Origin: Xenococcus sp. MO_188.B8 | GTDB taxonomy: Bacteria; Cyanobacteriota; Cyanobacteriia; Cyanobacteriales; Xenococcaceae | Assembly (NCBI GenBank): GCA_030065615.1 | Contig: JASJDR010000001.1 | Location: forward strand, 62,001 to 126,000 | Direction: 5' to 3' | Length of the DNA: 64,000 nt | In this document: in pieces, positions 45,793 through 64,000 of the stretch | Numbering within the stretch: the first letter of the stretch is position 1 | Layout: each line of letters starts with the position of its first letter | Program-made: the position numbers and the translations under genes | Notes under the pieces: generated by a model | The model's database searches: none | The model's input: the letters and a program-made list of their open reading frames with translations, nothing else | Told to the model about the DNA's origin: nothing

Positions 45793-46139
45793 TATTTATT
45801 GTTATCTTATTTTCCGTAATTCTGGTAGAAGTAATAATTTATATATCAAAAGTTTGTAATTAATTTTGTGTAACTACATAAATCAGCTAAGGAATTTATA
45901 CAACAATTACTTAAAAATTCAAGCTTTTGAATTACATATATTATTCCCAGAAAAAATATATGACTATTTAGAAATTAATCTGGGATCATTCCTAATTACA
46001 GTATATTATATTTCAGCTCTATTTTATGTCATAAGAAAAACAATAGTAATAGCTATACCTTAAAAAATTAGATTTAAATTTAAAAAGGCTATTTTTTTAG
46101 CAACAGTTGCCACGAATTAAATCAATTAAGATTAAAATT

Positions 46140-46535
46140 ATGTTAAAAACCAATTTACACTCGATGGCAAATTATTTAGGAATTTTATCATCATTAGGAT
46201 TTGCCTTGGCATTTTTTTCCTTTATCGCCAACATCTCAAATTATAAATTTAATAATAGAGTGATATTTACAGTAGCTCATTGGGGCTTAATAATTTCTAT
46301 TTTCTCTGGCTTGGTTCATGGATTATTGATGGCAGAAAGAGAAAATATTAATTTTTATGATTTTAAGACATATTGGATTTATGCTGAAGGTTTATTAACT
46401 TTTAATTTACTGATTTTTTTTTCGTTTAGTTTTACCGAGTTCAAATTAAGCACTAAAAAAATAATTTATTTCACTTATGCTTTATTATTTCTTATCAGCT
46501 GTCATCTTTGGGTGTCGGTAATACATCTTTCTTAA
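46140..46535 (+). CDS. Small four-helix membrane protein, unknown function
   Basis: This is a 131-residue hydrophobic protein starting at an ATG (46140); an upstream in-frame TTG at 46107 would add eleven residues, and an ATG at 46164 is also possible. Four predicted membrane helices are visible: YLGILSSLGFALAFFSFIA, VAHWGLIISIFSGLVHGLLM, GLLTFNLLIFFSFSFTEF and FTYALLFLISCHLWVSVIHL. I recognise no family motif. It lies between a MITE-like element and the MITE/IS1 remnants, in very AT-rich sequence. It may be a recent arrival or a degenerating gene. The sequence between 45793 and 46139 holds no ORF that I support. Confidence 0.5.
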   Translation: MLKTNLHSMANYLGILSSLGFALAFFSFIANISNYKFNNRVIFTVAHWGLIISIFSGLVHGLLMAERENINFYDFKTYWIYAEGLLTFNLLIFFSFSFTEFKLSTKKIIYFTYALLFLISCHLWVSVIHLS

Positions 46536-46626: not shown

Positions 46627-46641
46627 AAAAAACTGCTGCCA

Positions 46642-46830
46642 ATGCCAACTTGTCCGAATTGTTCTTCTGGGAAAACTGTCAAAAATGGTCATATTCACAA
46701 TGGAAAACAAAGGTTTCAATGCCATGAGTGCGATTGTCTGTCTTGGTGCGCGCCGGGAGGGAACTTTTTTTTGCCGAATGTTGATTTTTTCGACCGACAA
46801 ATTCAAATAGCCATGCTTCAATTACCTTAG
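46642..46830 (+). pseudogene. IS1-family transposase (InsA-like) N-terminal remnant
   Basis: MPTCPNCSSGKTVKNGHIHN followed by GKQRFQCHEC is the zinc-finger start of IS1 InsA-type proteins (CPNC...CHEC). After residue ~30 the sequence no longer resembles IS1. The frame stops after 62 residues, and no InsB part follows. It is a truncated relic just upstream of the PKS gene (gap 145 bases) and marks past insertion at this border. Confidence 0.7.
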
Positions 46831-46975
46831 ACGGTAAAAAAAGGAAAAATCCTCGAGCTTTTTTTCAACATCAGTTTGGAGTTATCTGGCTGACTAATTA
46901 TTCTTATTAATGGGGTTAGGAGCTAACACTTCAGCGGAAATATCTTTACAGTTTGAGTGAGAGATAACAAATTAG

Positions 46976-49900
46976 ATGGAACCCATAGCTATAATTGGAA
47001 CTGGTTGTCGTTTTCCCGGTGCTTTTGATATTGAGTCTTTCTGGCAGCTTTTGTGCCAAGGGATAGATGCGATCGCTGAAGTTCCTCCAGAACGATGGAA
47101 TATTAATACCTTTTACGATCCAGAGCCAGCGAAACCAGGAAAAATCAACAGTCGCTGGGGAGGCTTCTTAGAGCAGGTAGACCGTTTCGATCCTCAGTTT
47201 TTCGGGATTTCACCCCGCGAAGCCGAATATATAGACCCCCAACAAAGACTAATGTTAGAAGTGACTTGGGAAGCTTTGGAAAATGCTGGTTTAGTACCTG
47301 AAAAGCTATCTGGAAGTCAAACTGGAGTATTTGTCGGTATTAATGGTAGCGACTATGATCGTCTAGGGTGTAGAAATTTTGATAACTTATGTGCTTACAA
47401 CGGTACTGGTTCTGCCCCTGGTATTGCTGCTAACCGTATTTCTTACTCTCTGAATTTACGAGGACCCAGTGTCGGGCTTGATACTGCCTGTTCTTCATCC
47501 TTGGTCGCCGTTCACTTAGCCTGCCAAAGTTTGCGCAGTATCGAATCCGATTTGTGCCTGGTGGGAGGAGTCAATTTGATGCTGTGGCCCGGTCCCTCCA
47601 TTATTTTCTCTCAGGCTCAGATGACGGCAGCCGACGGTCGCTGTAAAACTTTTGACGCTTCAGCTGACGGTTATGTTCGGGGAGAGGGCTGCGGCGTAGT
47701 CGTGCTCAAACGCCTCAAGGATGCCCTAGACGATGGCGATAACATTCAAGCCATCATCAGAGGCTCGGCAGTCAACCAAGATGGTGCCAGCAACGGATTG
47801 ACCGCTCCCAATGGTCCTTCTCAACAGATGGTAATTCGTCAAGCTCTCAAAAATGCTGGGGTGACACCAGCTCAGATTAGTTATGTTGAGGCCCACGGTA
47901 CAGGCACTTCTTTAGGAGACCCGATCGAGGTCAAATCTCTCAAAGCCGTGTTAATGGAAGATCGCGACCCAGACAGCTCTTGTTGGATTGGCTCGGTCAA
48001 AACTAACATCGGTCATTTAGAAGCCGCCGCTGGGATCGCTGGTCTAATCAAGGTAATTTTACAATTACAACAGGGGGAAATTTTCCCTCACCTGCATTTG
48101 AAGCAGCTCAATCCCTATATTCGTCTGCAAGAAACGCCCCTTTCCATTCCTACTCAGCGCCAATCTTGGTCGGTTAGAGGCAGTCGTTTTGCTGGAGTCA
48201 GTTCCTTTGGCTTCGGGGGCACCAATTGCCATGTCATCCTCGAAGAAGCTCCGAGCCCAACACCGGTAGTTAGTGAAGTTAGTGACGTTGAGCGTCCTTG
48301 GCACCTACTCACTCTCTCTGCAAAAACTGAAAAGGCTCTCCAAGAATTAGTCACCTCCTATCAACAGTATCTGGAAAATCATCCAGAATTAGCGATCGCA
48401 GACATCTGTTTCACTTCCCATACAGGGCGATCGCATTTTAACCACCGTCTGGCTGTTATCACCTCTGACCAAGAAGAATTAGCCGCTCAATTAGCTAAAA
48501 TCAGCGAGGGAGAAGAATTTAACGGTGTATTTTCTGGACAACTCCCTAGTAATAATAAAGCACCTAAAATTGCTTTCTTGTTTACCGGACAAGGTTCTCA
48601 GTACATCAACATGGGAAGACAACTCTACTGTACCCAACCTGTATTCCGTCGAACCTTAGACCAATGCGAGCAAATTCTCCAATCTTATTTAGAAAAATCT
48701 ATTTTAGATGTTATTTATCCAGAAAATACTAAAGAATTAAATAATTTTGTCATTGACCAAACTGCCTATACCCAACCAGCTCTCTTTGCTATTGAATATG
48801 CCCTGACCCAACTATGGCAATCTTGGGGGATTCAACCTGATGTGGTGATGGGTCATAGTGTCGGAGAATATGTCGCCGCAACCATATCAGGAGTATTTAG
48901 TTTAGAAGATGGCTTGAAACTAATAGCACATCGTAGCAGGTTAATGCAGCAGTTGCCTGATGGAGGTGAAATGGTAGCTGTTATGGCATCAGAAGAGAAG
49001 GTAAATCAACTGATTGCCCCTTACAGAGATAAAGTAGTAATAGCTGCCATTAACGGACCCCAAAGTGTTGTCATTTCCGGTGCCTCAGAAGCGGTGGGGA
49101 TAGTTAAAGAAATCTTCGAAGAAGCAGGAATCAAGATCAAAAAACTACAAGTATCCCATGCTTTCCATTCTCCTTTAATGGAACCAATATTGGCAGATTT
49201 TGAAGTAGTAGCTAATCAAATAACCTACCATCAACCTCAGATTCCCCTGATTTCCAATATTACGGGTACCAAAGCCGACGAGACTATTGCTATAGCAAGC
49301 TACTGGGTTAATCATGTGCGTCAACCGGTGAAGTTTGCCCAGAGTATGGAGACCTTGCACCAAGCAGGGTATGAAATCTTTCTCGAAATTGGACCCAAAC
49401 CCATTTTGTTAGGGATGGGAAGGCGTTGTTTGCCAGGGGATGTAGGAATTTGGTTGCCTTCTTTACGTCCGGGTCAAGCAGACTGGCAGCAAATGTTACA
49501 GAGTTTGACAGAATTATATGTGCAGGGAGTTAAAGTAGATTGGTCAGGTTTTGAGCAAGATTATGCCCGCAGTAAAGTAGTATTGCCCACTTATCCGTTT
49601 CAGCGACAGCGCTATTGGGTGGAGGTCTCGGAAAATGGGCACCAAAAAGCAGGTACTTTATCCTTACAGAAGGCTCAGACCCCAATTTTTAACCTTCTCA
49701 ATCAGGGGAATAGTGAACAGCTTGCCCAACATTTAGAAACGGCGGAAAAACTCTCAGAAGAGGAGGTGAAATTACTGCCTAAGTTGCTGGAATTATTAGT
49801 TGAGCAACACCAACAGCAGCTAACTAAATCATTCATCGAAGATTGGCTTTACGAGGTAGAGTGGCAACCCAAGCCTCGAATCCTGAAGACTGCCCTAGAG

Positions 49901-51736
49901 AGAACCCAAGCTTCCGAACCGAGCAGTTGGCTGATTTTGGCCGATCCTGGTGGGGTAGGACAAACCCTGGCCGAACTTTTACGGGAGCAGGGTCATAGCT
50001 GTCTTCTGGTCTATGCTGGGGATACCTATCAGGCCAAAGAAAACGGAGCTTGGAGCCTCAACCCGTCAATCCCAGATGATTTTAAGCGTCTGTTCCAAGA
50101 GGATTGGGCAACAAGTCAGCCACCGTTAAGGGGAGTTATCCACCTGTGGAGTTTAGAAGCAGCCTCGCCAGATGCGCTAACCGTCTCCTCTTTAGAACAA
50201 GCGCAGGCTCTTGGTTGTGGGAGTGCGCTGCATCTAGTGCAATCCTTGGTCAAGCACCACAAGTTAGCCTCACCCCGATTGTGGTTAGTGACCAGGGGGG
50301 CAGTACCAGTCGGGCAGTCGCTGGCGGCAGTCGCTCAAGCTCCTCTTTGGGGACTGGGTAAAGTGATTGCCTTAGAACATCCGGAATTTTGGGGGGGTAT
50401 GCTGGATTTAGCGCCGGAGACCACTGGGGATGAAGCAGCAATGCTGCTAACAGAGATTGAGGATTCCCAAGGGGAAGACCATCTTGCTTTTCGGGAGGGA
50501 CAACGCTATGTAGCTCGCTTGATGCGGAGTCAACCATCAGAAAATCAAGAATTACAGTTATGCTCGGACAGCACTTACCTGATTACTGGTGGATTGGGTG
50601 CTTTAGGACATAAGGTAGCTCGGTGGATGGTGGAGCAGGGCGTACGGCATTTGGTGTTAACAGGGCGTCGTGGTGCTTCTTCTCAGGCACGGGAAGCCAT
50701 TACCTCCATGGAACGGGCAGGAGCTAAGGTTCTAGTTGCTCAGGCTAATGTGACTAACCAGGAGGAGCTGTTCAGGATGCTGGAAAAGGTTCAAGCATCA
50801 ATGCCTCCCTTGCGGGGAATTGTTCATGCGGCTGGTATCCTTGACGATGGCATTCTGTTACAGCAAAATTGGGCTCGCTTCCAGCAAGTCATGGCTTCAA
50901 AGGTTCAAGGAACCTGGAATTTGCACATCTTAACTCAGCAGTTATCATTGGACTTCTTTGTAATGTTTTCTTCTGCTGCTGCCTTGTTAGGCTCACCAGG
51001 TCAGGGAAATTATTCTGCTGCCAATGCTTTTATGGATACTCTGGCGCATTATCGTCAGTCTCAAGGTCTGCCTGGGTTAAGCATCAATTGGGGTCCGTGG
51101 GACGATGCGGGAATGGCAGCCAGTTTAACAAGCAGTTACCAGAAACGTATGGCCACCGGGGGACTGAATGCGATTGCTCCAAACCAGGGATTACAAGTGC
51201 TGAAGCAGGTACTAGGGCAAACCACTGCTCAAGTTGGCGTGTTGCTAGTCGATTGGTCAGTGTTTGGGCAACAATTTCCCTCTGATATATCGCTGCCGTT
51301 GCTCTCTGAGTTAGTTCATGAGACAAGGCCTCAGGAGCAAGCAGAACAGGGATTGAACCAGCGGTATGAGCTGTTACAACGCTTGGAAGAAGCTCCGGAT
51401 AGCGATCGCCAAAACATTTTAGTCTCTCACCTTCAAAATGAAGTAGCTCAGGTACTTCAAATGACTGCTTCCCAAATTAATTGGCAACAGCCTCTTAACA
51501 CCATGGGACTTGATTCCTTAATGGCTGTGGAATTGCGGAATCGTGTTCAAACTGATTTGGCAGTGGATGTGCCCATAGTCAAATTTATAGAAGATATCAG
51601 TATCGTCGATTTGGCGACTGAAGTAAACGGGCAACTGACCCAAATTGATAGGAATCAAGGAGTTGAGCAAGATGAGGACCAGCAAACTCTCTTAACTGAG
51701 GTGAAGGATAGTAATTGGATTGAGGTGGTGCTATGA
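46976..51736 (+). CDS. Type I polyketide synthase, KS-AT-KR-ACP
   Basis: This 1586-residue module has, in order: a ketosynthase (about 1-425; Cys172 in DTACSSS, His307 in EAHGTGT, His347 in [10 protein letters not shown]); an acyltransferase (about 530-850; Ser628 in [10 protein letters not shown], and HAFH at 728-731, the malonyl-CoA type signature); a ketoreductase (about 1000-1400; TGGLGALG at 1204-1211, LDD at 1289-1291 as in B-type reductases, Tyr1346); and an ACP (Ser1514 in MGLDSL). No DH, ER or MT domain is seen, so it should add a beta-hydroxy unit. There is no loading domain, so the starter must come from elsewhere. The stop overlaps the NRPS start (ATGA-type, 4 bases), showing translational coupling. 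KS and AT seem complete and active. Confidence 0.95.
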
Positions 51737-54700
51737 ATTTAGTTGAGTTTTTACAAGACCTTTCGCTAAAAGGCGTAAAGTTGTGGATTGAGGATGGACG
51801 ATTACGCAGTGGTGGTTCCCAGGAAGTATTAACCTGTGATGTGATCTTTCAACTCAAACAACACAAAACCGAAATCTTACAGTTACTGCGCGATCGCGCA
51901 GATATTTTGAACGTATATCCTCTCTCCTACGGTCAAAAGGCACTTTGGTTTTTGTGGCAATTAGCACCCCTAAGTCATGCTTATAACGTATCATTCCCCG
52001 CTCGTATTTATTCTGTAGTAGATATTACAGCAATGGAAAAGGCATTCGGAGCACTAAGGTCACGCCATCCTATCTTGCGTACTACTTTTCCAAAACAAAG
52101 ATCTGAACCAATCCAACAGGTGCATCAAAATCAGGAATTAGATTTCTTGGAAATTGATGCTCGCTCTTGGAGTGAAGATGAACTAAAAGCGAAAGTGATT
52201 GAGAGCCATCAACTTCCTTTTGACCTCGAACAAGGACCTGTTATGCGAGTTAGGTGGTTTACTCGTTCTAACAAAGAGCATGTCCTTTTGCTTACCATAC
52301 ACCACATTGCTTGCGATGGCTGGTCGATAGATCTGCTCATACAAGAGTTGCCACAACTCTACCAGGCACAACATACAGGTTTTGAAGCATCCCTCCCCCC
52401 TATGACGCATTCCTACCAAGATTACGTTTGTTGGCAGAGGGATATTTTGCAGGGGACTGAAGGGGAAAGAAACTGGAGCTACTGGCAGCAACAACTGGCA
52501 GGGGAGTTACCTGTACTGAATTTGCCGACAGATAGACCGCGATCGCCCATACAGACCTATAACGGTGCTTCTCATAAATTTAAATTATCTGACAAGCTAT
52601 CCTCGCAACTTAAGCAACTAGCTCAAAGAGAGGGAGTAACGCTTTACATGGTTCTCTTAGCTGCTTTTGAGGTGCTTCTGTATCGTTATACAGGTCAGGA
52701 AGATATTCTAGTCGGTTCTCCCACCTTAGGTAGGAGTCAACTTGAGTTTGCTCCGCTTATAGGCTACTTTGTTGACCCAGTTGTTATGCGGGCAAATTTA
52801 TCAGGCAATCCCAGTTTTAAGGAATTTTTGAGCCAAGTTCGTCAAACTGTCCTGGAAGCTCTCAAGCATCAAGATTATCCATTTGCTTTACTGGTAGAAA
52901 AGTTACAGCCACATCGTGACCCCAGTCGCTCGCCAATTTTTCAGGCTTCTTTTGCTCTACAAAAGTTACAAAAATCTCAAGATATACAGAAATTGTTGGT
53001 AAATGAAATAGAAAAGGATGTTGACTGGGGCGGAGTGAAGATAAATCCTTATGAAATCCCTCAACAGGAAGGTCTGTTTGATTTGACTCTAGAAATGATG
53101 GAGGGTAGTTCATCTGTTTTTGGGACTTTTAAGTACAATACTGACTTATTTGAGGGTTCAACCATTGAGCGGATGGCAGCTCATTTCCAGAACTTGTTGT
53201 CAGCGATAGTAAAAAATCCCCAACTTTCTGTGGCTGAATTACCCTTGCTCAGTAAAGCAGAACGTCATCAATTGTTGACCGATTGGAATCAAACCGAGAG
53301 TGAATATCCTAGTGATAAATGTATTCATCAGTTATTTGAAGAACAGGTAGAGAAAACCCCAGATGCTGTAGCGGTGGTATTTGAGAAGGAGCAATTAACT
53401 TACCAGCAATTAAATCAAAGAGCCAACCAACTAGCACATCACCTGCAAAGCTTGGGAGTCGGATCAGAGGTACTGGTGGGGATTTGCTTGGAACGTTCTG
53501 TTGAGATGGTAGTGGGACTGTTAGGGATACTTAAGGCTGGTGGTGCTTATGTACCCCTTGACCCCCATTATCCTCAAGAACGGCTGAGTTATATGTTGGC
53601 AGATTCGGCTGTTGAGGTGTTGCTTACTCAGAGATCATTATTGGAATCTTTGCCACAAAACCAAGCACGGGTGGTTTGTTTGGATAGCGATTGGGGTACC
53701 ATAGAGCAACAGAGTCAGGAGAATCTCGATGTTGGGATAGGTTCGGATAATTTGGCTTATGTGATCTACACTTCTGGTTCTACAGGAGTTCCCAAAGGGG
53801 TTTTAGTTGAGCACCAAGGTTTATGCAATCTAGCTCAAGCACAAAGAAATTTATTTGATGTAGAACCAACTAGTCGTATTCTTCAATTTGCTTCCGTAAG
53901 TTTTGATGCTTCTGTCTCGGAAATATTTATGGCTCTGACTTCTGGAGGAATGCTAATTTTAGCAACGGCTTCTGAGTTAATGCCCGGAGATGATTTGAAG
54001 CAAATCCTACATCAGTCCTGTGTGACTCATATTACATTACCTCCCTCTGCCCTGGCAGTATTACCCACCGCTCAATTGCCTGCTTTGAGCCACATAATTG
54101 TAGCAGGAGAAGCTTGTCCGATGGAATTGGTTAATCAATGGTCTGTTGGTCGGCGTTTCTTTAATGCTTATGGTCCTACTGAGTCTACTGTTTGTGCGAC
54201 GGTAGCTCAAATGAGCAATGATAGTGAGAAAATTACTATAGGTCGCCCTATTGCCAACACGCAAATCTACATCTTAGATCAGCACTTCCAACCAGTACCC
54301 ATAGGTGTACCCGGAGAACTATACATTGGAGGTGATGGCTTAGCCAGAGGCTACCTCAACCGCCCAGAATTAACAGGCGAAAAATTTATCCCCAATCCCT
54401 TCTCTAATTATCAATCAAAACGCCTTTACAAAACAGGCGACCTCGCTCGCTACTTGAGTGACGGTAACATTGAATTCCTCGGTCGCATCGATAATCAAGT
54501 GAAGGTGCGAGGCTTCCGCATCGAACTGGGAGAAATCGAATCTCTCCTCAACATCCACCCCCAAATTCAACAAACTGTAGTTATTGCCAGAGAAGACGTT
54601 CCTGGTAACAAACGCCTAGTAGCCTATGTAGTCAGTGAGGATGAATCACTCAGGACCAATCAACTGCGTGAATTCCTCGAACAGAAACTACCAGAATACA

Positions 54701-57700
54701 TGGTGCCTTTTGCCTTTGTTACCTTAGATACCCTACCCTTAACACCCAACGGCAAAGTAGATCGCAAAGCACTACCCGCACCTGATGGGGAAATTACCCG
54801 AGAACAGGAATATGTAGCACCAAGTACCCAAAGTGAAGAAATAATCGCCAATATCTTCGCTTCGGTTCTCAGTGTCTCAAATGTAGGAATCTATGACAAT
54901 TTCTTTGCATTGGGAGGACATTCCCTACTGGCAACCCAATTAATTTCGAGACTCAGACTAGCCTTCGAAGTAGAAATCCCCCTCCGGGCATTATTTGAAT
55001 CTCCCACCGTAGCTCAATTAGACCAGACATTAACCCAGTTACGCACTAATGATAGCGGATTAAGTCTTCCCCCGATTCAACCCAGAACTGAGAGGGAACA
55101 ATTACCCTTATCTTGGGCACAAGAGCGACTGTGGTTCCTCAACCAACTAGAAGGAGCCTCTGCTACTTACAACATGCCAGGAGCAGTCCGGATCACTGGT
55201 AACTTGGAGCTTAATGCCCTACAACAAGCATTATCAGAAATAGTCCGCCGGCACGAGGTACTACGTACTAGCTTCACAACAGTTAACGGCACACCTATTC
55301 AGGTAATTGACCCAGAAGCCACCATAAACATCAAGGTGCTGGACTTACAGGAAGTAGAAGTAACAGAACGGGAAACTGTCTTACCGCAACAAATACAACT
55401 TGAAGCAATTACCCCCTTTGACTTAGAAAGAGCACCATTAATCAGATGCAGTTTATGGCAGCTAGAGGCTACAGAATATGTATTATTACTGACCATGCAC
55501 CACATTGTTTCTGATGGTTGGTCAATCGGGGTCTTTATCCAAGAACTATATAGTTTATATCAAGCTTTTGCTGCGGGAGAACCATCCCCCTTGCCAGAAT
55601 TACCAATCCAGTATGCCGACTTTGCAGTTTGGCAAAGACAATGGTTGAGGGGAGAAGTACGAGAAACTCAACTCAATTACTGGAAACAGGAATTAGATGG
55701 TGCCCCCGAATTATTACAACTACCCACAGACCGCCCTCGTCCTTCTGTGCAAACTTTCCGGGGTACTACTCAAAGTTTTACGTTAAATACCGAGCTAAGT
55801 CAGAAGTTACAAACCCTGTCTCGGAAATCGGGGACAACTTTATTTATGACCCTCCAGGCGGCATTTGCCACTTTACTCTATCGCTACAGCGGTCAATCAG
55901 ATATTTTGATTGGTTCTCCCATTGCCAATCGTAACCGCAGTGAAATTGAGCCGCTGATTGGCTTTTTTGTCAATACTTTAGTGTTGAGAACCCGTTTTGA
56001 AGAGCATCCCAGTATGATGAGCTTACTAGCACAAGTGAGGGAAACCACTCTCAAAGCCTATGAATATCAAGATCTGCCTTTTGAACAGGTAGTAGAAGCA
56101 TTACAACCAGAACGCTCTTTGAGTCATTCGCCTCTGTTCCAGGTGATGTTTGTGCTGCAGAATGCCCCCATGGGTAAACTAGAATTACCCGGTGTGACTT
56201 GGACTCAATTAGCTCGAGAAAGCACCATTGCTAAGTTCGATCTAACCTTGTCAATGACGGAAACCGACCAGGGATTGGTGGGCTCATGGGAGTACAATAC
56301 AGACTTATTTGATGGCTCAACTATTAAGCGCATGGCAGGTCATTTTCAGAACTTGTTGTCAGTCATTGTAGAAAATCCCCAACTTTCTGTAGCTGAAATC
56401 CCCTTGTTGAGTGAAGCAGAACGCCATCAGTTATTGGTGGAGTGGAATGATACGGCAACGGAGTATCCCACTGATAAATGTATCCATCAATTATTCGAAG
56501 AGCAGGTAGAAAAAACCCCCGATGCCGTAGCGGTGGTGTTTGAGAATCAGCATTTAACCTACGAGCAATTAAATCGAAGAGCCAACCAACTGGCACATTA
56601 CCTGCAAAGCTTGGGAGTGGGGCCAGAAGTGCTGGTGGGTATTTGCTTGGAACGTTCTCTTGAAATGGTGGTGGGACTGTTGGGGATCCTCAAGGCTGGT
56701 GGTGCTTATGTCCCCCTGGACCCCAATTATCCAGCAGAACGGCTCGGTTATATGTTGGCGGATTCGGCTGTTGAGGTGTTGCTTACTCAGAGATCGTTAT
56801 TGGAATTTTTGCTAGAAAAGCAAGCACGGGTGGTTTGTTTGGATAGTGATTGGGGGGCAATTGAGCAACAGAGTCAAAAGAATCTTGATGTTGGGGTAGG
56901 TTCGGATAATTTGGCTTATGTGATCTACACTTCTGGTTCTACTGGAAAGTCCAAAGGGGTTACGATTGAACATCACTCTGTTCTAAATCTTAGAGAGGGT
57001 CTTAATAAAGCTATCTATGCCGAACTTAAAGATTCACCACTACGAATTAGCTTGAATGGTTCTTTTAGTTTCGATACTTTTGTAAAACAGTTTATTCAAT
57101 TACTTAATGGTTTCACTCTTGATATCATACCGACTATAGTGCGATTTGATGGAGATGCCTTATTATCCTACCTAAAAGACCACAAAATTGATGTATTTGA
57201 CTGCACGCTCTCACAATTGGAAATATTAATATCCGCAGGGTTACTTCTAGGCGATGATGTACCTAAATACATACTGATAGGAGGAGAAGCTATTACACCC
57301 GACCGTTGGCAAGCTTTGACTCAAGTAGAAAGCATTAATTTTTATAATGTTTATGGACCAACAGAATGTACTGTTGATAGTACATTGTGTAAGTTACGAA
57401 TATCTGATAATAAGCCAGTCATCGGTCGCCCCATCTCTAACACCCAAATATACATCCTAGACAAACACCTTGAAGCATTACCCATAGGGGTAACGGGAGA
57501 ATTGTACATTGGTGGTGATGGCTTAGCCAGAGGTTACTTAAATCGCCCAGAACTAACAGGCGAAAAGTTTATCCCCAACCCCTTCTCTAATTCACAATCC
57601 GAACGCCTTTACAAAACAGGCGACCTCGCCCGCTACGGTCGTGATGGGAACATTGAATTTCTTGGTCGCATTGACCATCAAGTGAAGATTCGGGGCTTCC

Positions 57701-59088
57701 GCATCGAACTGGGAGAAATCGAATCTCTCCTCAACACCTACCCCCAAATCCAACAAGCTGTAGTTATTGCCCGAGAAGATCTTCCTGGTAACAAACGCCT
57801 AGTTGCCTATGTAGTCAGTGAGGATGAATCACTCAGCACCCCTCAACTGCGTGAATTTCTCAAACAGAAGCTACCAGAATACATGGTGCCTTCTGCTTTT
57901 GTCACTTTAGACGCTCTACCCTTAACACCCAACGGCAAAATAGACCGCAAAGCACTACCCGCACCTGATGGGGAAATCACCCGAGAACAGGAATACGTAG
58001 CACCACGGACCCCAAGTGAAGAAATAATCGCCAACATCTTCGCAGAGGTTCTCAGTGTCTCAAATGTAGGAATCTACGACAACTTCTTTGAATTGGGAGG
58101 ACATTCCCTGTTGGCTGTCCGTCTCATGTCCGAGATTCAACAAAAATTCCAGATAAATTTACCTTTAGCCACCCTATTCCAAACTCCAACCATTGAACAA
58201 CTAGCCAGCATTATAAACTCTTCAGTAAATACACAAAGCTCCATATTAGTTCCCATAAAAACCAGTGGAAACCAACCTCCCTTATTCTGCATTCACCCTG
58301 TTGGTGGCAATGTCCTGTGTTATGCAGATTTAGCCCGTCATTTAGATCGAGATTACCCAGTATATGGCTTACAATCTGTCGGTTTAGATGGACAACAGCA
58401 ACCCTTAACTGACCTAGAGGAGATGGCATCCCATTACATTGAAGCAATACAGCAAATTCAACCCCAAGGCCCCTATCACCTAATAGGCTGGTCTATGGGA
58501 GGCGTAATTGCCTATGAGATGGCACAACAATTACAGGCTAAAAATCAGCCAGTTGCTCTTCTAACTTTAATAGACAGTTACGCACCCACTGTAATTCCTC
58601 GGCCTTCAGAAATAGATCAAGCAATGATAATCAACCAATTGGCTCAAGATTGGGTACGTCTCTATGGTCAAGAGTTAGATATCTCCCTAGAAACACTTAG
58701 AAAACTCCAACCTGACCAGCAAGTAAAACATCTATTTGAGCAAGCCAAACAGCAAGCCATCTTCCCCCCAGAAATAGAAATAGAGCAAATGCTTACTTTA
58801 TGGGAAGTTTTCCAAACCAATCTGATTGCCATGTATCATTATCAACCCAAAGCTTATTCAGGTTCAATTATCCTTCTCAATGCTAGTGAAACTACATCAG
58901 AAGTAATCGAAGACCCCACGCACGGCTGGGGGCATCTCGTTCTAGATGACATCACAATTCACACTATTACTGGAGACCATTACACCATTATGAAAGCACC
59001 ACAAGTGGAGGGTCTGACTGAAAAATTAAACGAGCATCTGAAGCTTATACAAACTCTAGAAGATAGGCAGTTAAAAATATTGGCATGA
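51733..59088 (+). CDS. Nonribosomal peptide synthetase, dock-C-A-PCP-C-A-PCP-TE
   Basis: This 2451-residue protein starts with a ~55-residue TubC-like docking domain. C1 follows (HHIACDG at 190-196), then A1 (about 525-1010; YTSGSTG near 680), PCP1 (Ser1064 in GGHSLL), C2 (HHIVSDG at 1256-1262), A2 (about 1576-2070), PCP2 (Ser2125) and a type I thioesterase (about 2190-2440; Ser2254 in GWSMGG, with the catalytic His in GDHYTIM). Reading the ten specificity positions by eye against GrsA, A1 gives DASTIAAVC(K), near the Phe/Tyr codes, and A2 gives DTKDLGVVD(K), near the Glu/Gln codes. There is no epimerase. It should extend the PKS product with an aromatic residue and then Glu/Gln, and release it by TE. 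It overlaps the PKS by 4 bases and the MFS gene by 4 bases. Confidence 0.95.
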   Translation: MNLVEFLQDLSLKGVKLWIEDGRLRSGGSQEVLTCDVIFQLKQHKTEILQLLRDRADILNVYPLSYGQKALWFLWQLAPLSHAYNVSFPARIYSVVDITAMEKAFGALRSRHPILRTTFPKQRSEPIQQVHQNQELDFLEIDARSWSEDELKAKVIESHQLPFDLEQGPVMRVRWFTRSNKEHVLLLTIHHIACDGWSIDLLIQELPQLYQAQHTGFEASLPPMTHSYQDYVCWQRDILQGTEGERNWSYWQQQLAGELPVLNLPTDRPRSPIQTYNGASHKFKLSDKLSSQLKQLAQREGVTLYMVLLAAFEVLLYRYTGQEDILVGSPTLGRSQLEFAPLIGYFVDPVVMRANLSGNPSFKEFLSQVRQTVLEALKHQDYPFALLVEKLQPHRDPSRSPIFQASFALQKLQKSQDIQKLLVNEIEKDVDWGGVKINPYEIPQQEGLFDLTLEMMEGSSSVFGTFKYNTDLFEGSTIERMAAHFQNLLSAIVKNPQLSVAELPLLSKAERHQLLTDWNQTESEYPSDKCIHQLFEEQVEKTPDAVAVVFEKEQLTYQQLNQRANQLAHHLQSLGVGSEVLVGICLERSVEMVVGLLGILKAGGAYVPLDPHYPQERLSYMLADSAVEVLLTQRSLLESLPQNQARVVCLDSDWGTIEQQSQENLDVGIGSDNLAYVIYTSGSTGVPKGVLVEHQGLCNLAQAQRNLFDVEPTSRILQFASVSFDASVSEIFMALTSGGMLILATASELMPGDDLKQILHQSCVTHITLPPSALAVLPTAQLPALSHIIVAGEACPMELVNQWSVGRRFFNAYGPTESTVCATVAQMSNDSEKITIGRPIANTQIYILDQHFQPVPIGVPGELYIGGDGLARGYLNRPELTGEKFIPNPFSNYQSKRLYKTGDLARYLSDGNIEFLGRIDNQVKVRGFRIELGEIESLLNIHPQIQQTVVIAREDVPGNKRLVAYVVSEDESLRTNQLREFLEQKLPEYMVPFAFVTLDTLPLTPNGKVDRKALPAPDGEITREQEYVAPSTQSEEIIANIFASVLSVSNVGIYDNFFALGGHSLLATQLISRLRLAFEVEIPLRALFESPTVAQLDQTLTQLRTNDSGLSLPPIQPRTEREQLPLSWAQERLWFLNQLEGASATYNMPGAVRITGNLELNALQQALSEIVRRHEVLRTSFTTVNGTPIQVIDPEATINIKVLDLQEVEVTERETVLPQQIQLEAITPFDLERAPLIRCSLWQLEATEYVLLLTMHHIVSDGWSIGVFIQELYSLYQAFAAGEPSPLPELPIQYADFAVWQRQWLRGEVRETQLNYWKQELDGAPELLQLPTDRPRPSVQTFRGTTQSFTLNTELSQKLQTLSRKSGTTLFMTLQAAFATLLYRYSGQSDILIGSPIANRNRSEIEPLIGFFVNTLVLRTRFEEHPSMMSLLAQVRETTLKAYEYQDLPFEQVVEALQPERSLSHSPLFQVMFVLQNAPMGKLELPGVTWTQLARESTIAKFDLTLSMTETDQGLVGSWEYNTDLFDGSTIKRMAGHFQNLLSVIVENPQLSVAEIPLLSEAERHQLLVEWNDTATEYPTDKCIHQLFEEQVEKTPDAVAVVFENQHLTYEQLNRRANQLAHYLQSLGVGPEVLVGICLERSLEMVVGLLGILKAGGAYVPLDPNYPAERLGYMLADSAVEVLLTQRSLLEFLLEKQARVVCLDSDWGAIEQQSQKNLDVGVGSDNLAYVIYTSGSTGKSKGVTIEHHSVLNLREGLNKAIYAELKDSPLRISLNGSFSFDTFVKQFIQLLNGFTLDIIPTIVRFDGDALLSYLKDHKIDVFDCTLSQLEILISAGLLLGDDVPKYILIGGEAITPDRWQALTQVESINFYNVYGPTECTVDSTLCKLRISDNKPVIGRPISNTQIYILDKHLEALPIGVTGELYIGGDGLARGYLNRPELTGEKFIPNPFSNSQSERLYKTGDLARYGRDGNIEFLGRIDHQVKIRGFRIELGEIESLLNTYPQIQQAVVIAREDLPGNKRLVAYVVSEDESLSTPQLREFLKQKLPEYMVPSAFVTLDALPLTPNGKIDRKALPAPDGEITREQEYVAPRTPSEEIIANIFAEVLSVSNVGIYDNFFELGGHSLLAVRLMSEIQQKFQINLPLATLFQTPTIEQLASIINSSVNTQSSILVPIKTSGNQPPLFCIHPVGGNVLCYADLARHLDRDYPVYGLQSVGLDGQQQPLTDLEEMASHYIEAIQQIQPQGPYHLIGWSMGGVIAYEMAQQLQAKNQPVALLTLIDSYAPTVIPRPSEIDQAMIINQLAQDWVRLYGQELDISLETLRKLQPDQQVKHLFEQAKQQAIFPPEIEIEQMLTLWEVFQTNLIAMYHYQPKAYSGSIILLNASETTSEVIEDPTHGWGHLVLDDITIHTITGDHYTIMKAPQVEGLTEKLNEHLKLIQTLEDRQLKILA

Positions 59089-60380
59089 GAACTTTTTTTG
59101 TCGTCTGGTTTGGTCAACTTATATCCTTATTTGGTTCTCAACTCACCAGCTTTGCTCTTGGTGTTTGGGTATATCAAAACACCGGCTCAGTAACTCAATA
59201 TGCTCTTATCTCTTTTTTCACAGTTCTACCAGGCTTAGTAATTGCTCCCCTAGCTGGAGCGTTAGTAGATCGTTGCGATCGGCGTTGGGTGATGATTTTC
59301 AGTGATTCAGTTGCTGGTTTGAGTACCTTCAGTATTGCCTTGCTAGTGATCGCGGGAAAACTACAAATCTGGCAGATTTATCTCGCTACCACCATCAGTT
59401 CCATCTCGAATGTTTTTCAATGGCCTGCTTATGTTGCCACCACCACCCTAATCATCCCAAAAAAACATTTTAGTCGCGCTAGTGGCATGACTCAGTTTTC
59501 ACAAGCTTTAGCTCTATTGCTAGCGCCAATTTGTGGGGGGTTTCTAGTAATTTTAATCCATTTACAGGGTGTAATTTTGCTTGATTTCATAACCTTTTTA
59601 TTAGCAATATTGATACTTTTAATTGTCAAATTTCCGAAACCAAAGACTACGATCGCTGGAAAATTAGGCAAAGGTTCTCTAATAAAGGAATCTATCTATG
59701 GCTGGAGATATATCCTGGCTCGACCAGGACTGATAGGACTGTTAATATTCTTCGCTATCAGTAACTTCGCCATCGGTACTACTCAAGTTTTATTCATTCC
59801 CCTAATTTTGTCTTTTACCTCTGCTAATGTCCTAGGCATAGTTATATCCATTGGGAGCAGTGGGATGTTAATCAGCAGCCTCCTTATGAGCATTTGGGGA
59901 GGTCTAAAACGTCGAATTTACGGTGTACTTGGTTTTGCGATCCCGCTGGGGCTGGGGATTTTCTTAGTAGGGCTGAAAACTTCTGTTATCTTAATTACGA
60001 TTGGAGTCTTTATGGCTTTTTTTACAATCCCTATTACCAGCAGTTCCTCTAATGCCATCTGGCAAACTAAGGTAGCACCTAATGTCCAAGGAAGAGTTTT
60101 TGCTATTAGACGTATGTTTGCTGGGTCATCACGACCTCTAGCTTATTTGCTCGCAGGTCCCCTAGCCGAAGAAATATTTGAACCTTTAATGACAGTTAAT
60201 GGCCCCCTAGCCAGCAGTATCGGACAACTTATAGGTACTGGACCAGGCCGTGGTATTGGTCTGATGTTTATGGTCATGGGAATCTTCACTATGTTAACCA
60301 CTATTATTGCCTATCAGTATGCTCCATTAAGGTTAGTAGAAGATCACTTGCCTGACGCCATCATTGATCCTATTGGCTGA
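59085..60380 (+). CDS. MFS transporter of the NRPS/PKS cluster
   Basis: The 431-residue protein has about twelve hydrophobic segments and the MFS A-motif-like GALVDRCDRRWVMIFSD (about 60-75) after the second helix. It belongs to the MFS_3/enterobactin-exporter-like group that begins FFVVWFGQLISLFGSQLTSFALGVWVYQ and has ASGMTQFSQALALLLAP. Its ATG overlaps the NRPS stop (ATGA). It is therefore the third gene of the PKS-NRPS operon and most likely exports the product or gives self-protection. The C-terminus carries a Gly-rich loop (IGTGPGRGIGLMFMVMG) between the last two helices. Confidence 0.92.
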   Translation: MRTFFVVWFGQLISLFGSQLTSFALGVWVYQNTGSVTQYALISFFTVLPGLVIAPLAGALVDRCDRRWVMIFSDSVAGLSTFSIALLVIAGKLQIWQIYLATTISSISNVFQWPAYVATTTLIIPKKHFSRASGMTQFSQALALLLAPICGGFLVILIHLQGVILLDFITFLLAILILLIVKFPKPKTTIAGKLGKGSLIKESIYGWRYILARPGLIGLLIFFAISNFAIGTTQVLFIPLILSFTSANVLGIVISIGSSGMLISSLLMSIWGGLKRRIYGVLGFAIPLGLGIFLVGLKTSVILITIGVFMAFFTIPITSSSSNAIWQTKVAPNVQGRVFAIRRMFAGSSRPLAYLLAGPLAEEIFEPLMTVNGPLASSIGQLIGTGPGRGIGLMFMVMGIFTMLTTIIAYQYAPLRLVEDHLPDAIIDPIG

Positions 60381-60543
60381 GAAAATATGAGTTCGATGAA
60401 CTTCATAAAGAATCAAGTTGGGGTTGGTTAAAGGGGAAAGGTAAGAGGCTATCTTCTCACACTTTAACCTATAGTTTTTTACTCTAAGCACAACTCATCG
60501 AACTGACGTTGAGAGAACTAACGTTGAGAGAGGGTTGCAATTG

Positions 60544-61215
60544 TTAAATCTTGGCACATTTCTTCAACAAAGTGACTGGATAAGCTGGGGAAAGACCAGC
60601 GTCTCTCACGCTCAATACCCATTCTTTGCTAAATTCCTGAGTCATCAAATTAACCCTAGAGGTTAATGTTGCAGCTAAAGATGGATTATAGGATCTAATA
60701 TGTGCGATCGCAAGTCCCAAGGTTTCTGTGACTAATTCTGGCTCAAATGTCCAAAATCCGTAACATTTACGCTCCCAATCTTTCCGAGGCTGTCCTAATG
60801 CCCCATAATCTGATTCAGACAATTCTTGACACAAAACCATTGCCGTATAGCTAGGAGACAAAATTATCAAATGCCATTCTTGAGCAACAGGATCTTCTGG
60901 TTTCAGATTCACAAGAGCAACATTATCCTTTTGACTAATGGGGTGAGTTTCAAATCCAGCATCGGATGTTGCCATAATTGCGATTTGCTGTGACTTATTA
61001 GCCAATTTACGATAACGTTCTGCTTCTTTAGGATACCATTTTCCCCGCTGAAAAGCTGTCACTATCAAGGGATTTTTATTGGATTCTAAAATAAAATCTT
61101 CTAAAGCATGACATAAAACTATCAAAGTATTTTTATAATAAACTTCTAAATTCAAAGGATTGCTACTATTTTGATGAGCTAATTTTAATTGTTTTAATAT
61201 TGAACCTTCAAGCAT
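60544..61215 (-). CDS. DICT-domain (sensory) protein
   Basis: This 223-residue cytoplasmic protein begins MLEGSILKQL. It contains a DICT-like sensory domain (VYYKNTLIVLCHALEDFIL, VTAFQRGKWYPKEAERYRKLANKSQQIAIMA) with NVALVNLKPEDPVAQEWHLIILSPSYTAMVLCQELSESDYG and a C-terminal WTFEPELVTETLGLAIAHI helix. DICT domains were defined as sensors in diguanylate cyclases and two-component systems, and cyanobacteria have stand-alone forms. The ligand is unknown. It is convergent with the MFS gene and downstream of the type II thioesterase. It may be a cluster regulator, but proximity is the only hint. Confidence 0.75.
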   Translation of the reverse strand: MLEGSILKQLKLAHQNSSNPLNLEVYYKNTLIVLCHALEDFILESNKNPLIVTAFQRGKWYPKEAERYRKLANKSQQIAIMATSDAGFETHPISQKDNVALVNLKPEDPVAQEWHLIILSPSYTAMVLCQELSESDYGALGQPRKDWERKCYGFWTFEPELVTETLGLAIAHIRSYNPSLAATLTSRVNLMTQEFSKEWVLSVRDAGLSPAYPVTLLKKCAKI

Positions 61216-61299
61216 TTCAGTTATCAGTTAGGGATTATAGTACTAAAAAAAATAGCCTCATTACTTCAAAGCCGATTTAGATCAAGCTTCTGTATCATC

Positions 61300-62052
61300 T
61301 CACTTAAAAATCAAGAGTTTTTGGATTTGCTGAGCTAGGGCTGGCTGTAGCTCACGGTTGCTAGTATGTAAAAAGAAATGATCGCCAGAAAACATTTGCA
61401 GACTAAACTCACTTTTAGTTTGCTCCCGCCAGGCAGCAAGTTCTTCTAGGCTGACTTTGTTGTCTTCTAAACCACCAAACGCCGCAATGGGAAAATCGAA
61501 GGCTTTTTCCTCGAGATAATGGTAAGTTTCTAATAACTCGAAATCAGCCCGTAAAGTTGGGAGAAATAACTGCATCAACTCTTGGTTTTCTAGCACTTCC
61601 TCTGGAATTCCCTTGAGACGCTCTAGTTTCTTGATAAACTTAGTATCAGCTAGGCGATGAATTGGTGGCTCAGGATCTGGCAGTTGGGGAGCACGGCTAC
61701 CAGAAACCAATAAGTAAACTGGGTTTGGCCAATTTCGTCGCCTAAATTCGCGTGCTAATTCAAAGCTCAACAATGCTCCCATACTATGACCGAAAAAAGC
61801 AAAGGGCTGATTTAGATATGGTCGAAGAACGGGGGCCAGATTTTCTATTATTGGTTTCAGCCTTTTTAAAGGAGCTTCCCTTTGTCGATTTTCCCTGCCT
61901 GGTAAGCGAATCGAGCAAATTTCTATTTCCGGTGGTAGACATCTAGTCCAAGAGCGGAAACAGGAACCCCCCCCTCCGGCATAGGGAAAGCAGAATAGAC
62001 GAAGACGGTTTTGAGGATTGGGTCGAGGGCAAACGATCCACGAGTTTGTCAT
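61300..62052 (-). CDS. Type II thioesterase of NRPS/PKS type
   Basis: This 250-residue alpha/beta hydrolase starts at ATG MTNSWIVCP, chosen because the family begins here; the frame is open 21 codons further to 62115. It has LRLFCFPYAGGGG near the N-terminus, the nucleophile Ser in FFGHSMGALLSFELA, and a GDHFFLHT segment with the catalytic His. Type II thioesterases remove wrong or stalled acyl groups from carrier proteins of the PKS and NRPS. The gene sits on the opposite strand to the PKS-NRPS-MFS operon, 95 bases after a frameshifted carrier-protein gene. It completes the cluster on its right side. Confidence 0.9.
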   Translation of the reverse strand: MTNSWIVCPRPNPQNRLRLFCFPYAGGGGSCFRSWTRCLPPEIEICSIRLPGRENRQREAPLKRLKPIIENLAPVLRPYLNQPFAFFGHSMGALLSFELAREFRRRNWPNPVYLLVSGSRAPQLPDPEPPIHRLADTKFIKKLERLKGIPEEVLENQELMQLFLPTLRADFELLETYHYLEEKAFDFPIAAFGGLEDNKVSLEELAAWREQTKSEFSLQMFSGDHFFLHTSNRELQPALAQQIQKLLIFK

Positions 62053-62147
62053 TGGTAACAAGGTATGTAAGTTATCAAGGGGCTTTAAGAAAAGAATGAC
62101 AGAAAACCTGGTCACAAATATAGTTTTTGTCGAGAAAGGAACAATTA

Positions 62148-62523
62148 TTAGCTTTTGCTTGGTTTTTCGCTGTCTTCTAACAATCTAAAAATCTCTAAAC
62201 ATTTCTGCTCAAAGTTGTCTTGAAGCTGCTTTCTTAATTCAGTCGCTATCTAAAGAATCGAGACCCAGGTCGGAAAAATGCTGTTGCCAGTCTAATTCGG
62301 AAGCAGAAGGTCTCATCACTTGCTTCAAATTGCGGTCAAAATCTCGGGCAATCTCCACTGCTGCACGACCTTTGATATTCGCTTCTTCTGCGGTTAAAAA
62401 GATACTGTCAAAGTTGAATGCGATACCTGAAAAGTCAATAATACTAAAACTATACAGTTGATCTAAAGAACAATAAATTAATAAGGTATAGCCATCAATT
62501 CCGATTATATTTTGAATTTTCAT
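62148..62523 (-). pseudogene. Frameshifted small protein ending in a carrier-protein (ACP) domain
   Basis: An ATG at 62523 with a strong AGGAG site (spacing 7) opens a 94-residue frame whose last residues are DWQQHFSDLGLDSLDSD. LGLDSL is the phosphopantetheine attachment motif. Right after it the frame is lost; the next frame continues as ATELRKQLQDNFEQKCLEIF and runs to a stop at 62148. Together these read as an almost normal ACP helix II/III (LGLDSLxATELRKQLQ). One extra base in 62247-62250 accounts for the change. The first ~58 residues (MKIQNIIGIDGYTLLIYCS) match no domain I know. It may be a true mutation, a programmed or sequencing frameshift, or two fused pieces. The thioesterase follows on the same strand. 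Confidence 0.6.
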
Positions 62524-63533: not shown

Positions 63534-63827
63534 TCAAAACGAGGGATAGCGTGGTGCGGTTAAATAGGTCTCATCAACTAACTGGCGTTCTCCAGAGAGC
63601 CATTTCTTCGCAATTGTAGCTGCTAACTTTTTCACTCGCCTAGATGGATTATTCTTTAAATAAGCTCTCATTGTCTGAGGTTCTAAGCATAGCTCTTCTG
63701 CTGCTTGTTCATGAGTTAGCCCGAAAGCCATGCGGAAATCTAAAGGATGCAATTCACCAAGCTCCTCCAGCTGACTAATAATCTGATTAGTATCAATTTG
63801 ACAGTTGTTTTTATGAGTTACGATCAC
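63534..63827 (-). CDS. Small protein with possible helix-turn-helix
   Basis: The frame starts at TTG 63854, but a GTG at 63827 preceded by AAAGAGG with 9-base spacing is better. It gives 97 residues. The centre (LDFRMAFGLTHEQAAEELCLEPQTMRAYLK) looks like a helix-turn-helix, and the end is basic (NPSRRVKKLAATIAKKW). It begins just after the stop of the partial gene at 63860, so the two form one unit. Function unknown; a DNA-binding regulator or antitoxin-like role is possible but unproven. Confidence 0.55.
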   Translation of the reverse strand: MIVTHKNNCQIDTNQIISQLEELGELHPLDFRMAFGLTHEQAAEELCLEPQTMRAYLKNNPSRRVKKLAATIAKKWLSGERQLVDETYLTAPRYPSF

Positions 63828-63859
63828 TTTACTATACCTCTTTAGATCAATCAAGCAAT

Positions 63860-64000
63860 TTACAGATTTGAAGTGTATTTATTTGGCTGTAGTTTCTCTA
63901 ATAAAGATTCAGTTTGAGTCCACAAATGCAAAAACTCGGCTTTACTTTGAGGATTTTCGCTCCAATCAGAAACCACCTTCAAGCTCCCCTCTTTAAACCC
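63860..64000 (-). CDS. C-terminal end of an unknown protein, cut by window edge
   Basis: The minus strand is open from the window edge to a TAA at 63860-63862, giving 46 residues (GFKEGSLKVVSDWSENPQSK, then a helical Leu/Glu-rich end). No family is recognised from this part. It is directly upstream of the small HTH-like gene (stop only 5 bases from the alternative TTG start), so they are probably co-transcribed. Confidence 0.45.
   Translation of the reverse strand, partial: GFKEGSLKVVSDWSENPQSKAEFLHLWTQTESLLEKLQPNKYTSNL

Follow-up and report, generated by a model that had tools for sequence, protein, structure and literature searches.

On the forward strand of a 64,000-nucleotide stretch of the cyanobacterium Xenococcus sp. 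MO_188.B8 (the window; C124:62001-126000 of an 8.26-Mb genome in 354 contigs), we describe an operon for a polyketide synthase (PKS), a nonribosomal peptide synthetase (NRPS), and an exporter of the major facilitator superfamily (MFS). This operon probably yields a small acyl-dipeptide, for which a fatty acyl chain, activated by a fatty-acid-AMP ligase (FAAL) and possibly chlorinated, would be held on an acyl carrier protein (ACP) that feeds two ketosynthases (KSs), one of them here. Which starter the PKS extends is a question largely answered by the ancestry of its KS. The operon runs from window position 46976 to 60380 (+), its neighboring open reading frames (ORFs) share 4 bp, and all three genes are real and intact. 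The PKS (46976..51736, +; 1586 aa) consists, by ORF, Pfam, and motifs, of a KS, a presumed malonyl acyltransferase (AT), a presumed B-type ketoreductase (KR), and an ACP, with the KS beginning at residue 1 and no loading domain among the Pfam domains. The NRPS (51733..59088, +; 2451 aa; ORF and Pfam) comprises a TubC dock, two condensation-adenylation-thiolation (C-A-T) modules, and a thioesterase (TE), and the third protein (59085..60380, +) is MFS_1 by Pfam. A preliminary description of this DNA, made from its letters, had proposed the same PKS-NRPS-TE-MFS order, on which Pfam and ORF coordinates agree, over the range 46976-62523; the operon accounts for this range as far as 60380, while the genes at 60544-62523 (a DICT-domain gene, a TE, and a broken ACP fusion) are on the minus strand and lie outside it.

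The KS of the operon shares 89% amino-acid and 87% nucleotide identity with the KS situated 108 bp behind a CylC-type halogenase gene on the same contig, at the locus L080 (our G, C, and L numbers stand for genomes, contigs, and loci). Compared in bins of 50 aa, the nucleotide identity between the operon PKS and L080 is 83-93% as far as residue ~450. There it falls abruptly: the three bins that follow have 49-55%, and those still farther on 45-60%, save for one bin at 76%. Similarity extends upstream of the start codon as well: the 5' leader (46845..46975, +) aligns with the intergenic spacer between CylC and KS, its last ~50 bp matching the spacer of L080 with a score of 64 (the maximum over 200 shuffles was 27) and its whole 131 bp matching the spacer of G003:C62 with a score of 78 (this score unshuffled). 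In a first tree of 36 KSs, the operon KS and all eight CylC-adjacent KSs shared one side of a branch (100/97). In a second tree of 57 KSs, the 15 CylC-adjacent KSs all fell within one 24-row clade (98/86) that includes the operon KS, which is sister to the KS of L080 (100/82), followed by those of G026:C412 (98/89), G003:C62 (100/100), and G091 (99/96). By identity, breakpoint, leader match, and tree position, the operon KS is derived from a CylC-linked KS, most likely within this lineage, and the tract 46976..48325 (+) is the copied portion by nucleotide bins, tree, and identities.

The company kept by related KSs indicates what they are fed. Among KS matches at E<=1e-180 in 150 genomes (its own and 149 relatives, the operon's own KS left out), CylC lies 38-1382 bp upstream in 17 of 30 and in ten of the 12 best; conversely, 17 of the 33 CylC places among the strongest matches listed are followed by a KS of this set, a count that includes pieces of one gene and leaves out weaker CylC matches. 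The remainder of the 24-row clade consists of one KS behind an HctB-like halogenase-ACP, four behind an ACP without a CylC match, and three unclassified rows, of which one sits where its contig ends, another is preceded by an ACP at a distance of ~2.2 kb, and the third has 0.4 kb of upstream sequence in the compared stretch and belongs to a genome without a CylC match. The later KSs of loci with several PKSs fall outside this clade. Since the tree loci were picked by a match to the KS, PKS, NRPS, MFS, or FAAL, and many compared genomes are drafts, these proportions are not prevalences. In the main, the clade appears to mark ketosynthases of first modules, to which a free ACP delivers a fatty acyl. 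The PKS would then lack a loading domain because its KS belongs to a clade whose members mostly come after the free-standing ACP in a FAAL line, in most cases one that also has CylC. Priming by acetyl- or malonyl-derived units, which would give a 3-hydroxybutyryl-type cap, might also be read from a PKS protein without a loading domain, but it sits badly with the clade membership of the KS and with a FAAL nearby, and we consider it highly improbable.

The case for a halogenated donor has several points against it. CylC is missing in front of 13 of the 30 KS matches, one of which (G067:C87, 76%) has a FAAL, a desaturase, and an ACP but no CylC match, and the clade includes the four rows behind a CylC-free ACP, the three unclassified rows, and some weak inner forks. 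Given this composition and these forks, a fatty acyl-ACP is supported more firmly than a halogenated one: the starter is very probably a fatty acyl, and for its chlorination we would put the chance slightly short of even. The same four rows of 24 and 13 matches of 30 would suit an ordinary FAAL lipopeptide, in which the KS takes an unhalogenated acyl from an ACP loaded by any FAAL of the genome and CylC serves only the neighboring PKS/glycosyltransferase line; so would the several FAALs in the genome and a window without a match to CylC, a free ACP, or a type III PKS (E<=1e-3). However, the nearest relatives of the operon KS (L080 in its own genome, G003:C62, G026:C412, and G091:C2) are all CylC-adjacent, and we regard this alternative as unlikely, though by no means far-fetched.

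A candidate starter supply for the favored acyl-dipeptide pathway is encoded on the same contig. A stand-alone FAAL of 615 aa (C124:125860-127707, its C-terminal end in the window at 63860..64000, -) lies 3.5 kb past the MFS gene and is intact beyond the window end; it matches AMP-binding and fatty-acid-AMP ligase models, with scores under the NCBIfam cut-offs of those models, and has 86% identity to the FAAL of the CylC cluster in G026:C10. Farther along, L080 (C124:142413-158364) holds an ACP, a CylC-like protein, three PKSs (KS-AT-ACP, KS-AT-KR-ACP, and KS-AT-DH-ACP, the last without a TE), and a glycosyltransferase, and thus forms a second cluster, one without an adjoining FAAL, whose ACP, CylC, and PKSs have close relatives in G003:C62 (L100). 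The free-standing ACP (109 aa, C124:142413-142742) is 20 kb from the operon, and the CylC-like protein (474 aa, C124:142799), the single CylC match in the genome, is ~34 kb from the PKS start. The latter carries QERSH and HFLDESLH, which fit the QExxH and HxxDExxH motifs given for dimetal halogenases in PMC12101540; its score against the AurF Pfam model is under the cut-off, and searches of PDB and NCBIfam returned no match to it.

A linked stand-alone FAAL and a free-standing ACP, features of FAAL-initiated PKS-NRPS pathways, are present on the contig. It is the KS ancestry that makes the ACP and CylC candidate partners of the operon, and transfer of the acyl from the ACP at C124:142413-142742 to its KS is a prediction from phylogeny. 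Weighing against this supply, all of FAAL, ACP, and CylC lie outside the operon, with ACP and CylC 20 kb off beside another PKS line; CylC does not directly precede the operon PKS, and we do not file the operon itself as a CylC cluster. At least four other FAAL-like matches at >=54% are also listed for the genome, and another FAAL could serve. On balance, we think it rather probable that this FAAL and this ACP supply the starter. The shared contig and the TE-less last PKS of L080 could instead be taken for a single ~50 kb pathway, with the three PKSs at C124:144328-157016 acting first and then passing their chain to the operon PKS. Such an arrangement seems very unlikely, given that the operon KS begins at residue 1 and belongs to the first-module clade, apart from the later L080 KSs, and that an L080-type cluster without this operon occurs in the stretch examined of G003:C62 (8000-31770).

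Within the operon, the checked motifs are intact: GHSVGE and HAFH in the AT, YSAANA in the KR, and GLDSL in the ACP of the PKS, and HHxxxDG in both C domains, GGHSL in both T domains, and GWSMGG in the TE of the NRPS. We take GHSVGE with HAFH to denote a malonyl-type AT and the LDD of the KR to be the B-type signature. The TubC N-terminal docking domain (51742..51891, +), at the start of the NRPS and behind a PKS that ends in an ACP, scores 47.3 bits against a cut-off of 26, and the ATGA overlap of the PKS and NRPS genes likewise occurs in Tolypothrix campylonemoides VB511288 (L047) and in G107:C11 (L109). Adenylation codes were read on a motif-anchored alignment, with the A1 fragment placed at residue 230 of 1amu and its D at 235. 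The code of A1 (53323..54792, +), DASTIAAVC(K), is presumably aromatic, for Tyr or Phe, and Tyr is favored because Ser stands at 239 where PheA has Trp. For A2 (56473..57957, +), DTKDLGVVD(K) resembles what we take to be surfactin-type codes for Glu or Gln, and its Lys at 239 together with this likeness leads us to favor Glu. A literature search with five A-domain codes matched only DAQDLGVVD, and the near code DAQDLGVVDK is reported to accept both Glu and Gln (PMC12283262). Release falls to the C-terminal type I TE (58276..59034, +; Pfam and motif). The preliminary description had anticipated much of this, namely a malonyl-type AT and B-type KR in a PKS without a loading domain, a TubC-like dock, by-eye codes for an aromatic residue and then Glu/Gln, TE release, and an MFS gene, as well as the lack of a named product, in keeping with which no characterized cluster was matched in the searches run. 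Its interpretation stands in architecture, codes, TE, and MFS, while the starter, and with it the KS clade and the nearby FAAL, ACP, and CylC, had been overlooked.

Taken as a biosynthetic sequence, the FAAL would activate a fatty acid and load a free-standing ACP, most likely that at C124:142413-142742, and the CylC-type halogenase beside this ACP may chlorinate the bound fatty acyl. The operon KS, a copy of the KS normally fed by that ACP, would extend the acyl by one malonyl, and the KR would leave a 3-hydroxy group. The chain would then cross the TubC dock to the NRPS for addition of Tyr (or Phe) and then Glu (or Gln), after which the TE would free the product, presumably as an acid or a lactone, for export by the MFS protein. 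A bolder version, which we offer tentatively and as clearly shy of an even chance, sees the duplicated starter KS as an address label: leader and KS would have been copied before an unrelated AT-KR-ACP/NRPS mosaic, and one chlorinated acyl-ACP pool (one FAAL, one ACP, one CylC) would feed two competing lines, one for a polyketide/glycosyltransferase pathway and one for a chlorinated lipodipeptide. If true, a new lipopeptide line can arise through transfer of a single starter ketosynthase, and such a KS alone would suffice to tap the activated (halogenated) fatty acid of a neighboring line.

Beyond the KS, comparison of 80-aa tiles with the other collected loci (the operon's own loci left out) shows the operon to be a mosaic of parts like those of several PKSs and NRPSs. 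By Pfam and tiles, the AT (48575..49534, +) is mostly nearest to the FAAL-ACP-KS-AT lines of G049 (80%) and the KR (50570..51106, +) to a PKS of G003:C52. Tiles of the ACP end, TubC, and C1 are mostly nearest to Tolypothrix campylonemoides VB511288, with two nearest to G107:C11; those of C2 to Tolypothrix, Moorena, or C131 of the same genome; those flanking the A domains to C131, Tolypothrix, and others; and those of T2 and TE to Moorena sp. SIO3I8. The A2 core (aa ~1700-1900) is nearest to an NRPS on C291 of its own genome, with code DTKDLGLVD. Two NRPS fragments of this genome, on G000:C131 (L115) and G000:C291 (L099), have A domains of 87% and 79% identity whose codes equal or nearly equal those of the operon, which points to A domains having been exchanged inside this genome.

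At full length, the NRPS had no match but itself among the matches listed for 100 genomes (its own and 99 relatives), and none of 22 loci from a named-genome scan, which possibly does not cover its own genome, had the PKS-NRPS-MFS order in the compared stretches. The MFS gene was rejected as a cluster marker, with matches in 74 of 100 genomes, its own included; ten stretches around such matches held the operon in none, though L025 had the end of an NRPS and L022 had FAAL and PKS domains. In G015 (C7:3404760-3405373, L023), degenerate MFS pieces with 79-80% identity to the operon exporter occur, with no further operon gene in the ~33 kb examined around them.

To the right of the operon, the minus strand carries in order the DICT-domain gene, a TE, a 94-aa ORF, a 106-aa ORF, the FAAL, and a NUDIX gene, an arrangement best understood from intact relatives. 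Both G026:C10 and G021:C250 have, one after another, FAAL, 106-aa ORF, desaturases, ACP, CylC, PKSs, TE, and type III PKS; the shorter versions in G015 and G004 lack the 106-aa ORF and the desaturases. In the window, the 106-aa ORF (63534..63854, -) keeps the same place directly behind the FAAL as in G026 (88%) and G021 (82%). Residues 1-64 of the 94-aa ORF (62239..62523, -) correspond to a small gene behind the FAAL and 106-aa ORF in G021 (73%), and residues 62-91 to part of the ACP of the last G026 PKS (score 103), after which the frame is lost. The TE (61300..62115, -) is 79% identical to the TE at the C-terminus of a G026:C10 PKS. Since the 94-aa ORF is such a join with a lost frame and this TE comes next, the TE and broken ACP are what is left of a FAAL/CylC/PKS cluster that has been lost: its middle, ~14-15 kb by G021 coordinates, was deleted, leaving the FAAL and a TE piece. 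Two candidate roles were accordingly rejected: the TE as a helper TE of the operon, since its match is to the C-terminal part of a PKS that is gone from this place, and the 94-aa ORF as a working ACP, since it is a fusion scar with a lost frame.

To the left, a small ORF (46107..46535, +) without a Pfam match, at most a candidate member of the operon, has a 46% homologue upstream of ACP-CylC-KS in G026:C412. Between it and the PKS leader lies a remnant (46640..46841, strand unspecified) that resembles an insertion sequence (IS) or a miniature inverted-repeat transposable element, with a frame we take to be of IS type, and its section 46761-46841 recurs at several loci of this and related genomes. 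Scar, TE remnant, and IS-like remnant, along with the degenerate MFS pieces in G015, could be taken to mean that the locus is silent or decaying, an intact operon that makes nothing without its own ACP and CylC. Yet the checked PKS and NRPS motifs are intact in open frames and the decayed genes are another cluster's, and we consider silence improbable. Farther left, an animal-type haem peroxidase (PF03098; 39457-41196, -) adjoins two repeat proteins that look similar by eye (41652-43562 and 43844-45649, both +).

Among known systems, the acyl-dipeptide pathway favored here shares its logic with hapalosin (hap) and hectochlorin (hct): an activated fatty acid on an ACP, one KS-AT-..-KR-ACP module giving a 3-hydroxy acyl, and then an NRPS. 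The residues differ, and the halogenase of our operon would be CylC-type and distant; HctB is reported to be a three-domain halogenase (PMC6218459). For hapalosin, ring closure by the TE via the 3-hydroxyl has been proposed (PMC4558948). HapB has a C-methyltransferase, and the hapalosin type includes an A-KR NRPS module; in our operon, Pfam (E<=0.01) shows no methyltransferase family for the PKS, and the NRPS lacks a KR family. Closest to the hct type in our data is G107:C11 (L109/L116), with an HctB-like PhyH-ACBP-ACP protein, the same PKS-TubC junction, and 70%, 59%, and 60% identity to the KS, TubC, and C1 of the operon. The NRPSs of Tolypothrix campylonemoides VB511288 (L047; 57-82% over TubC, C1, A1, T1, and C2) and Moorena sp. 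SIO3I8 (L048; 75% in C2, 72% in T2, and 81% in the TE) are related too, yet differ from ours in module order, second residue code, and an adjoining PKS that is different or missing, and we know of no product for either.

Clusters of FAAL, ACP, CylC, and type I PKS have already been described (PMC8406957), and microginin (mic) is one that also has NRPS modules (PMC12250027). Our data include a FAAL-ACP-CylC-PKS-NRPS locus, G133:C271, with a KS in the same clade as the operon KS. In microginin, columbamide, puwainaphycin, and chlorosphaerolactylate, FAAL, ACP, and CylC are followed by a type I PKS, whereas the CylC and ACP of our operon are not beside its PKS; nor does it contain a microginin-type aminotransferase or monooxygenase domain, the former sought in PKS and NRPS by Pfam at E<=0.01. 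Literature searches on a chlorinated 3-hydroxy lipodipeptide and on a Tolypothrix VB511288 lipopeptide returned nothing usable, and our searches of the open-licence literature turned up no second line begun by the duplicate of a CylC-linked ketosynthase. A parallel is scytocyclamide (laxaphycin, lxa), where a single starter-enzyme set supplies two NRPS lines (PMC7524897); those lines share FAAL and PKS enzymes, whereas here the ketosynthase itself would be duplicated into the second line.

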